Source: a virus. From it: a stretch of 32,316 bases of DNA. Positions 9,636 through 30,160 of this stretch are shown in pieces (within the stretch, counting starts at the first letter, position 1; each line of letters starts with the position of its first letter). The notes beneath the pieces were generated by a model, which did no database searches, was not told the origin of the DNA, and saw only the letters and a program-made list of their open reading frames with translations. Both the position numbers and the translations under genes were made by a program. The stretch spans positions 1 through 32,316 of the IMG/VR virus record IMGVR_UViG_3300041586_000059, one strand, 5' to 3'.

Positions 9636-10064
9636 TCATAAATTTCTGAATGCTTGTTTGATCGTTTGATAGATCACCATAAGGGTCTTTGCATAAGCTG
9701 TGTCTTTATCTTCCAAATCTGCATATAGGGCTTTGGTCATATCCATTGCCACGACCAAGTCACGCTTGGCTTCCTTCTGTCCGTTGATAAGTTCTGCCAT
9801 TGCTGAGATGCTGCTGTCCTTCTCATTTGGCGGTCCAAAGTACGGTTTATCTTGATCTGCTGAATCCCATACATGACTACTCAGATCAAGATTGAATTTT
9901 TCCTTCAGTAGGTTGAGGTGATGGATTTGTGGCAACTGCTTTCCAGTCTCCAAAAAGGACACGATAGTACGGCTGACTCCTAATTTATTTGCCACATCTT
10001 CTTGGGTCAGTTGCTTTTTCTTCCTCCAGTCGTGTAATGCCTGGGAAAACTTTTTATTTTCCAT
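9636..10064 (-). CDS. XRE-family transcriptional regulator, probable lysogeny repressor
   Basis: 142 residues. An XRE/Cro-CI helix-turn-helix covers about residues 9-60 (LTQEDVANKLGVSRTIVSFLETGKQLP). The rest is helical with heptad-like character (about 85-142) and probably serves for oligomerisation. There is no LexA/CI-type autoprotease domain, so induction by RecA self-cleavage is not expected; the antirepressor at 29369 could supply an alternative route. It is the only leftward gene in the early region and is divergent from the rightward early genes across an 86-bp switch region. The role as master repressor is inferred from place and fold. Confidence 0.85.
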   Translation of the reverse strand: MENKKFSQALHDWRKKKQLTQEDVANKLGVSRTIVSFLETGKQLPQIHHLNLLKEKFNLDLSSHVWDSADQDKPYFGPPNEKDSSISAMAELINGQKEAKRDLVVAMDMTKALYADLEDKDTAYAKTLMVIYQTIKQAFRNL

Positions 10065-28674: not shown

Positions 28675-28950
28675 ATGAAAAACTGTGATAACTGCGGAAT
28701 TGAAGTCCAAGACATAAATAACTCCCTGTGCAATGCTTGCGGTGAGTCTATGTCAGCAGAATGGTTTGAGCCAAGCCATCTTAAATTCAAAAATCTAATG
28801 GCTGATCTTGATATGAACTATCGAGACATTGCTGACCTGCTTGGAATGAAATACAGTTCGGTTAAGAATCAGCTGGCACCGGCTAAGGAGCTTCCAAAAT
28901 GGGCGGTATCAATGTTGTTTGTCAGCGAGCAGTTGAAGGACAAAAGCTAA
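28675..28950 (+). CDS. Zinc-ribbon plus HTH regulator of the cassette
   Basis: 91 residues. An N-terminal zinc ribbon with two CxxC pairs (CDNCG at 4-8 and CNACG at 19-23) is followed by a helix-turn-helix (FKNLMADLDMNYRDIADLLGMKYSSVKNQLA, about 38-69) of XRE-like type and a last helix (WAVSMLFVSEQL). It follows the acidic gene within 10 bp and precedes the second terminator by 5 bp. It most likely binds the two 16-bp palindromes at 28229 and 28259 and represses its own operon. Binding is inferred. Confidence 0.7.
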   Translation: MKNCDNCGIEVQDINNSLCNACGESMSAEWFEPSHLKFKNLMADLDMNYRDIADLLGMKYSSVKNQLAPAKELPKWAVSMLFVSEQLKDKS

Positions 28951-29124: not shown

Positions 29125-29182
29125 TTTATTATTTTTTCACGTATGTACTTGTAAATTAGATATTTTATGCGAAATTAGATGT

Positions 29183-29335
29183 GTCAAGTCAAATATTCCA
29201 AGGGTGGACAACTGCCCTGCTACTGTTAAGGGTTTTTTTATGCCCAACGATAAGCGGCGCTTAACCCCGTGTAAAGACTGTAATGGTTTTTGCAGCCCTT
29301 GGAAGAGGACTTGACAACGGGAAGTGGGCGCCGTT
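29183..29335 (+). ncRNA. c4-like antisense RNA upstream of the antirepressor
   Basis: The ends pair strongly. GTCAAGTC (29183-29190) pairs with GACTTGAC (29308-29315), and TTCCAAGGG (29196-29204) with CCCTTGGAA (29296-29304), 17 pairs around a small internal loop. Inside are CTGTAA/TTGCAG (29278-29283, 29290-29295), GTTAAG/CTTAAC (29225-29230, 29260-29265) and other short pairings. Two segments are perfectly complementary to the antirepressor leader. GTGGACAA (29204-29211) matches TTGTCCAC (29341-29348), and TTGGAAGA (29299-29306) matches TCTTCCAA (29360-29367), which ends one base before the ATG. GACTTG (29308-29313) also matches CAAGTC (29348-29353). A two-block antisense encoded just ahead of an antirepressor is the c4 plan of P1/P7. 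The promoter was not found. Confidence 0.65.
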
Positions 29336-29342
29336 CTTTTTT
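29316..29342 (+). terminator. Terminator between structured RNA and antirepressor
   Basis: AACGG (29316-29320) pairs with CCGTT (29331-29335) across a 10-base loop, followed by C and six T (29337-29342). It ends the structured RNA 26 bases before the antirepressor ATG. The weak 5-bp stem would allow some read-through into the antirepressor gene. Confidence 0.6.
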
Positions 29343-29368
29343 GTCCACAAGTCAAAAATTCTTCCAAA

Positions 29369-30160
29369 ATGTTTAACTTAAAAATCTTACCATTTTCATA
29401 TAATGGTAGTACCCTGAATACTGTTCAGGAAGAAAATGAACCTTTATTTATTGCTAAAGATGTAACTGATATTCTTGGTTATAAAACTGCAAGTGATGCA
29501 CTAAGAGGTTTAGATGATGATGAAAAGCTGCTACGCACAATCTGCGTATCAGGTCAGAATCGAGAAATTAATTTCATAAATGAGTCAGGTCTTTACTCCT
29601 TAATTCTTAGAAGTAAGAAACCAGAAGCCAAGCAATTCAAGCGATGGGTAACTCATGAAGTATTGCCTGCGATTAGAAAGAACGGAGGCTACCTGACTCC
29701 TGGAAAGACTGAGGAGCTGCTGGCCAATCCTGATCTGATCATTGAGCTTGCTACCAATCTCAAGAATGAGCGCAAGCGATTGGCATCACTGATGACTGAG
29801 ATCGATGATCGTAATGAGATTATTGATTTTCAAGATCAGCATCTAAAGATTCAAGCTCCAATAGTAGCATACTACCGGAATGTTTTAAACTCATCCGATA
29901 CAGTCACTACCAATGTGATTGCCAAGGAACTTGGGATGAGTGCAATTTCCCTGAACAAGATTCTTCATGAGGAATACAATATGATCTATCGCTCCGGAGA
30001 TACCTGGGTACTCTATGCCAAATACCAAAAAATGGAACTGACTCGCACCAAGACACATTCCTTTACCGGAAGTCTTGGAGAATTACGAACCTCAATTCAA
30101 ACGGTATGGACACAGAAGGGAAGAAACTTTCTCCATGAGCTCCTAAAAGATCGCAAGTAA
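29369..30160 (+). CDS. ant: Antirepressor: BRO-N domain plus KilA-C (ANT) domain
   Basis: 263 residues from the ATG at 29369. A GTG further upstream (29324) lies in the terminator stem and is rejected. The BRO-N domain covers about 8-105 (FIAKDVTDILGYKTASDALR ... SGLYSLILRSKKPEAKQFKRWVTHEVLPAIRKNGGY). A coiled coil follows (about 125-165). The C-terminal KilA-C/ANT domain covers about 170-260 (TTNVIAKELGMSAISLNKILHE, SGDTWVLYAKYQ, HSFTGSLGELRTSIQTVWTQKG). Such proteins bind and inactivate phage repressors. Since the XRE repressor here lacks an autoprotease, this protein may be the induction switch. The RNA just upstream probably controls its translation. Confidence 0.9.
   Translation: MFNLKILPFSYNGSTLNTVQEENEPLFIAKDVTDILGYKTASDALRGLDDDEKLLRTICVSGQNREINFINESGLYSLILRSKKPEAKQFKRWVTHEVLPAIRKNGGYLTPGKTEELLANPDLIIELATNLKNERKRLASLMTEIDDRNEIIDFQDQHLKIQAPIVAYYRNVLNSSDTVTTNVIAKELGMSAISLNKILHEEYNMIYRSGDTWVLYAKYQKMELTRTKTHSFTGSLGELRTSIQTVWTQKGRNFLHELLKDRK

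Follow-up and report, generated by a model that had tools for sequence, protein, structure and literature searches.

The segment directly upstream of an antirepressor gene in the window (the whole stretch of DNA analysed here, a virus contig of 32,316 bases with no host genome attached) probably encodes a C4-type antisense immunity RNA that controls this gene. The RNA is a member of a large family carried by Bacteroidota phages, in which a constant core is combined with varying antisense guides. C4-type control has so far been reported from Proteobacteria and their phages, where both C4 and c4-a1b1 are placed (Rfam; PMC2864571), and the same logic seems to apply here in Bacteroidota phages. 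No report of such an RNA in Bacteroidota was found in the open literature; a prior description is possible, subscription journals being mostly outside this search.

Organization of the antirepressor leader

The elements of the locus are as follows.

29149–29178, + strand: promoter-like sequence (TTG 29149–29151, 19 nt, degenerate −7 box GAAATTAG 29171–29178)
29182–29204, + strand: segment A, a1b1-like target mimic and predicted transcript 5′ end, complementary to B
29201–29218, + strand: antiterminator-like hairpin AGGGTGGACAACTGCCCT, sharing its first bases with the 3′ end of A
29215–29239, + strand: terminator T1, CCCT-GCTACTGTTA-AGGG-TTTTTTT, mutually exclusive with the preceding hairpin
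29253–29270, + strand: 5′ strands of the core closing helices, H1 (29253–29263) and H2 (29266–29270)
29270–29294, + strand: core hairpin with a conserved GUAAU loop (92% of cells paired; 7/8 pairs with both-side changes)
29295–29316, + strand: segment B, antisense (b′ 29299–29306, a′ 29311–29315), able to pair with A and with two blocks of C
29317–29342, + strand: 3′ strands of H2 (29317–29321) and H1 (29325–29335), which with the U-run 29337–29342 make up terminator T2
29324–29348, + strand: hairpin H3, GTGGGCG (29324–29330) with TGTCCAC (29342–29348), overlapping the H1 3′ strand
29350–29367, + strand: segment C, leader target, GTCAA (29351–29355) and TCTTCCAA (29360–29367)
29369–30160, + strand: antirepressor gene, Bro-N and KilAC/ANT, 263 aa (Pfam PF02498, PF03374; phrog_130, E 9e-79)

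A preliminary description of this DNA had reported a structured RNA with 17 closing base pairs and two blocks of complementarity to the leader, ahead of a KilA/BRO-type antirepressor gene. Its coordinates and complementarities are all exact in the sequence: GTGGACAA at 29204–29211 is the reverse complement of TTGTCCAC at 29341–29348, TTGGAAGA at 29299–29306 is that of TCTTCCAA at 29360–29367, and the start codon ATG of the gene is located at 29369. The gene product matched both Bro-N and KilAC domains. The minimum-energy fold of the region has −61.5 kcal/mol (z = −3.4), and none of 200 shuffled sequences was equally stable. The 17 pairs are present in this fold, as 8 + 9 bp extended inwards, but they represent the pairing of the target mimic with the antisense segment (A:B); the antisense core is closed by a different helix, which is itself conserved. 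Similarly, the block at 29204–29211 pairs perfectly with 29341–29348 in the window but is not conserved across 62 relatives, in which the own leader scored 11.1 and foreign leaders 11.2 (permutation p 0.60, 62 copies). Since the own leader pairs no better than foreign leaders, this pairing is probably a coincidence of the window copy. In the relatives, the stretch after the terminator pairs instead with the 3′ strand of T2, and 29342–29348 form the 3′ strand of H3, whose pairing is conserved. The preliminary description had missed the attenuator that follows A, terminator T2 and the breadth of the family. Its main reading, a P1/P7 c4-like control of the antirepressor, is strongly supported by the co-change of A, B and C, at loci of which at least half precede antirepressor genes, and by a P1-like order of elements.

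The Bacteroidota-type −7 box TAnnTTTG was found upstream of A in 44 of 64 relatives, where 1.5 would be expected by shuffling, and almost all of these 44 have it at a distance of 3 nt from A; the window's own box is degenerate (4/6). Because the box mostly ends 3 nt ahead of A, segment A is probably the 5′ end of the transcript. T1, a hairpin followed by a U-run, is present in 55/64 relatives, and a hairpin that overlaps its 5′ strand and is mutually exclusive with it in 51/64.

Conserved core and terminator T2

The closing stem of the core is long-range and consists of two parts, the variable H1 and the nearly invariant H2 (CCCG/CGGG). In H1, all seven modelled pairs show changes on both sides among 64 copies, and a swap test on raw sequence scored own strands at 22.8 and foreign partners at 12.7, above all 2000 permutations. 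H2 is 100% paired in the 64 copies, and even this helix shows a compensated change in a Porphyromonas gingivalis phage (CCCTC with GAGGG). Over the whole core, 96.7% of the cells are paired and 18/20 pairs show both-side changes (64 copies), with a covariation score of 0.747 versus 0.192 for shuffled alignments and about 0.05–0.1 for slid partners. Since the alignment was fitted to the model, these counts lean towards the model; the swap tests on raw sequence are independent of it and agree.

Segment B lies directly 5′ of the H2 3′ strand. A U-run follows H1 in 60/64 copies, and the antisense RNA is predicted to end at the resulting T2. H3, which shares the H1 3′ strand, also pairs better with its own partner than with foreign ones (15.2 versus 11.4, above all 2000 permutations of the raw-sequence swap test) and is a candidate anti-T2 that would oppose T2.

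Distribution of the family

Two covariance models of the core were used, R1 built from three sequences and R2 from 21 copies. R1 found copies in 11 of 200 Rikenellaceae genomes. A single gapped core pattern retrieved 62 stretches from the virus collection, 61 of them new, and R1 gave 60 matches of 36 to 102 bits in 59 of these 61. With R2, matches were obtained in 15/393 Bacteroidales genomes and 4/395 Bacteroidota genomes, and in none of 299 Bacillota and 299 Pseudomonadota genomes (0/598). Named carriers are P. gingivalis phages, Bacteroides phage BS-TP3 and a B. thetaiotaomicron plasmid. An nhmmer search upstream of the Bro-N antirepressors of other phages (Bacillota, Prevotella) recovered no member except in Alistipes. 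Terminase similarity gave no pointer to the host of the window virus; the range of the family and the type of promoter suggest that it also belongs to Bacteroidota.

Some genomes carry several copies. The Rikenellaceae genome G023 has eight model matches, including six clear copies (L152, L157, L158, L159, L160 and L162), whose arms differ and whose leaders contain no target. Tandem modules with different guides occur at L255 (G311:C22), L251/L247 (G311:C7), L256 (G407:C26) and L257 (G555:C2), and the first module of a tandem pair (L249, L251) has no evident segment A. Some tandem-module genes encode similar proteins of ~95–105 aa.

Three-way complementarity of segments A, B and C

Complementarity of segment B to A is found in almost all copies, and to C in roughly half of them; as originally proposed, the 3′ arm can pair with either the 5′ arm or the leader. 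In the window, the A:B duplex has −30.3 kcal/mol and the B:C duplex −17.8 kcal/mol, compared with −5.9 ± 2.3 kcal/mol for shuffled leaders, none of 2000 being as good. The block at 29299–29306 was correctly described as pairing with TCTTCCAA in the leader, and GTCAA at 29351–29355, opposite TTGAC at 29311–29315, is a second conserved leader block. The subfamily of the window has such a two-block C, with blocks four bases apart opposite 29311–29315 and 29299–29306. In the nearest antirepressor relative (L002, 69% identity), the RNA also precedes the gene, and its core is constant but its arms differ; TGCTAA and TCACAC stand at the block spacing of the window, so that the bipartite C is kept while its letters are changed.

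Many other copies have a single-block C rather than two blocks, and about half have no clear contiguous segment C. An exact match of 8 nt or longer occurs in 24 copies, nearly all of which have C at or beside an ATG. The leader TGCTTAAACACC of an Alistipes prophage copy, which precedes the first start codon, is complementary at 12/12 positions to the antisense arm GGTGTTTAAGCA. Guides vary widely, with 61 distinct 8-nt guides among 103 copies. Nevertheless A, B and C co-vary across dozens of loci, providing the compensatory changes in relatives on which the preliminary description had made its proposal depend. In the raw-sequence swap test, the A:B helix scored 27.1 with its own partner versus 15.1 with foreign ones, above all 2000 permutations. 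The alignment scores of 56 non-redundant copies were 14.9 (own) versus 6.7 (foreign, sd 1.4) for A:B and 9.6 versus 6.4 (sd 1.3) for B:C, and in 31 copies the own leader ranked in the top three of 56 for B:C. Chance as the source of the three-way match is excluded by the swap tests together with the covariation counts.

We also considered whether orphan copies are aimed at the leaders of other phages. Their matches seemed significant against shuffled guides (3 versus 0.18), but the idea was dropped because copies with a target of their own match foreign leaders equally (mean 7.7 versus 7.0).

Genes downstream of the RNA

The first ORFs behind the RNA (n = 64) comprise 15 with Bro-N, 4 with KilA-N, 4 with Rha and 1 with AntA domains. 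Where the first ORF is short, 9 of 10 following ORFs checked carry ANT, KilA-N, Bro-N, P22_AR_N or Rha; in the Alistipes prophage, for example, a 93-aa ORF comes first and the antirepressor next. About half of the loci thus appear to control antirepressor-type genes, and the others are followed by ORFs of no recognised family. The downstream genes of the G023 group are not recognised antirepressors; these ORFs form one family, and the one ORF searched alone gave no PHROG match. A match to the SymE toxin family was obtained for one of the 64, where the RNA might regulate a toxin-like gene as well. HicA (2) and HicB (1) toxin-antitoxin families were found among ORFs slightly further downstream.

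The B. thetaiotaomicron plasmid belongs to strain BFG-119, is 61.9 kb long and carries a phage portal gene; Alistipes sp. dk3624 is another named strain with a copy. In the plasmid, the RNA is followed by a gene that the annotation names antirepressor Ant, and C, on direct reading, covers an in-frame ATG that precedes the annotated start by 16 codons. The annotated start of this antirepressor (L260 2707–2755, NZ_CP103284) is probably 16 codons too far downstream.

Elsewhere in the window, the likely repressor is a 142-aa HTH_3 protein (9636–10064, − strand). Only HTH families were matched by this protein and no peptidase domain was listed, which fits an antirepressor-based induction. A 91-aa ORF lies before the RNA (28675–28950, + strand), with a weak, below-cut-off match to sigma-70 region 4 and a match to phrog_8898 of unknown function.

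Proposed mechanism and alternative explanations

The sequences themselves show a family with conserved folds, an A/B/C complementarity, a target placed at the start codon, an attenuator-like arrangement and an association with antirepressors. Beyond this we infer that the RNA is transcribed, processed and active in trans, which way its effect goes and that it serves immunity, as follows. One promoter would give rise to a transcript that starts with A and stops at T1 or T2, or reads into the antirepressor gene. The T2-ended product would carry B in the loop of the conserved closed core and would act in trans as antisense RNA, probably after its 5′ part is lost as in P1 C4. When B pairs with segment A of a nascent transcript, the antiterminator would be blocked and termination at T1 would become more likely; when B pairs with C, the start region would be covered and translation of the antirepressor or of a preceding short ORF prevented. 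In a lysogen, the RNA would keep the antirepressor off, which would be freed if the RNA were lost or if a phage carrying another A/B/C triple entered. In the full-length RNA, B is bound far more strongly by A (−30 kcal/mol) than by C (−18 kcal/mol). Since A out-competes C for B, action in trans would need the removal of A or (co-transcriptional) folding kinetics.

The half of the copies without a clear C, the downstream genes of G023 and the lack of an Rfam C4 match speak against the C4-type reading, and two of its rivals are live. If control were exerted on transcription only, pairing of B with A would force the stop at T1, and the match to C would be a by-product or a second termination signal. 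The immunity of satellite phage P4 is a control of this kind, acting on transcription only. Such a mode would account for the near-universal A:B pairing, B:C being evident in roughly half of the copies, and for the attenuator layout in 51/64 relatives. We consider it somewhat unlikely, since C is located at or over the start codon and not ahead of a further terminator, and since it co-changes with B. The other live rival is a switch in cis, perhaps set by a host factor or transcription speed, in which the alternative pairings A:B, H1/T2, H3 and B:C are formed within one mRNA and no RNA acts in trans. All segments do lie on one strand behind a single promoter, A:B is the strongest pairing, and T1 and T2 both have mutually exclusive partners. 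This switch seems quite improbable to us, given that T2 would yield a discrete RNA that stops short of the gene in 60/64 copies, that L249 and L251 carry a core and B directly before full modules but no evident upstream A, and that P1, with the same order of elements, acts in trans (PMC5320573, PMC12197685).

The inverted repeats and their position next to a phage gene could also suggest a DNA-level or protein-bound element, such as an operator, an origin or a recombination site, that merely resembles an RNA. The promoter and terminators are fixed in order and strand, the helices contain G-U pairs and the covariation tracks RNA pairing, which makes such an element highly improbable.

The C4-type reading may extend further. 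It is conceivable, and we propose it tentatively, that the family is a widespread, re-targetable system of Bacteroidota phages that combines termination at T1 via A with a translation block via C, sets its own supply by T2 and its rival hairpin, and also serves genes other than antirepressors. If the C4-type reading is true, the prophages of a main group of gut bacteria possess an RNA-based switch for immunity and induction, and hetero-immune phages would be predictable from sequence alone. The variety of guides on a constant core is a natural data set for antisense specificity, and the model can be tested in Bacteroides thetaiotaomicron.

Comparison with P1/P7 C4 and other antisense systems

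The P1 annotation has the order promoter, a1, b1, c4 RNA, a2, b2, icd and ant1. The window and its relatives show the corresponding order of a target copy, the antisense RNA, a target copy at the translation start, (icd) and ant. They also share with P1/P7 C4 the promoter, the antiterminator/terminator pair, the closed form of the antisense RNA, the location of the antisense segment immediately before the 3′ closing strand, the optional short ORF before the antirepressor, and a target sequence that differs between phages. Two antisense blocks are found in the window (29299–29306 with 29360–29367, and 29311–29315 with 29351–29355) and likewise in close relatives. C4 of P1 is processed by RNase P to ~77 nt and acts in trans, its a′ and b′ pair with the target at the ribosome-binding site, and a four-base difference gives hetero-immunity (PMC5320573, PMC12197685).

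The fold differs from that of C4. P1 C4 has a closed stem with two hairpins, b′ being a hairpin loop and a′ an internal loop, whereas the new family has a closed stem with one conserved hairpin, and B lies outside any conserved hairpin loop. Unlike C4, the family has a CCCCGUG/CGGG core with a GUAAU loop, a B formed by one stretch or two adjacent blocks, its own U-run terminator and a Bacteroidota promoter, and it occurs in Bacteroidota and in none of the 598 genomes of two other phyla. The Rfam C4 model (RF01695), proposed as a check in the preliminary description, gave no match in the window or the family members tested, nor did RF03163 (c4-a1b1), while the P1 controls scored 68.8 and 51 bits, respectively. 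No gathering-level match of any Rfam 15 model was obtained in the window or 35 related loci, and a permissive search (E up to 10) of 601 bases of the window region gave chance-level matches only. Membership in C4 by homology was rejected, as R2 finds nothing around P1 c4. Because the order is P1-like yet the Rfam models and R2 do not cross-match, the family appears to be C4-like in function and architecture and not a detectable member of C4; common descent and convergence are both possible.

The CI RNA of satellite phage P4, with seqA, seqB and seqC, is described as conferring immunity by transcription termination. It resembles the new family in having one antisense segment for two sites on the same transcript, upstream of and near the first gene, and in an immunity that differs between relatives; it acts by termination, whereas the target of the new family covers the start codon. 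The attenuators of the pT181 and pIP501 replication genes likewise have exclusive antiterminator and terminator hairpins, the choice between which can be set by an antisense RNA. That RNA is made from the opposite strand, whereas the antisense segment of the new family lies downstream on the same strand.

Direct reading of P1 (AF234172, L225 48277–48312) gave TGCGGACAACCGCAGATTTCCGATATTGCGGTATTTTT between b1 and c4, which we interpret as an exclusive antiterminator/terminator pair of the same kind. Its overlapping hairpins, TGCGG-ACAA-CCGCA and CCGCA...TGCGG-TATTTTT, are unmarked in the annotation of the record and are attenuator-like, as in the new family.
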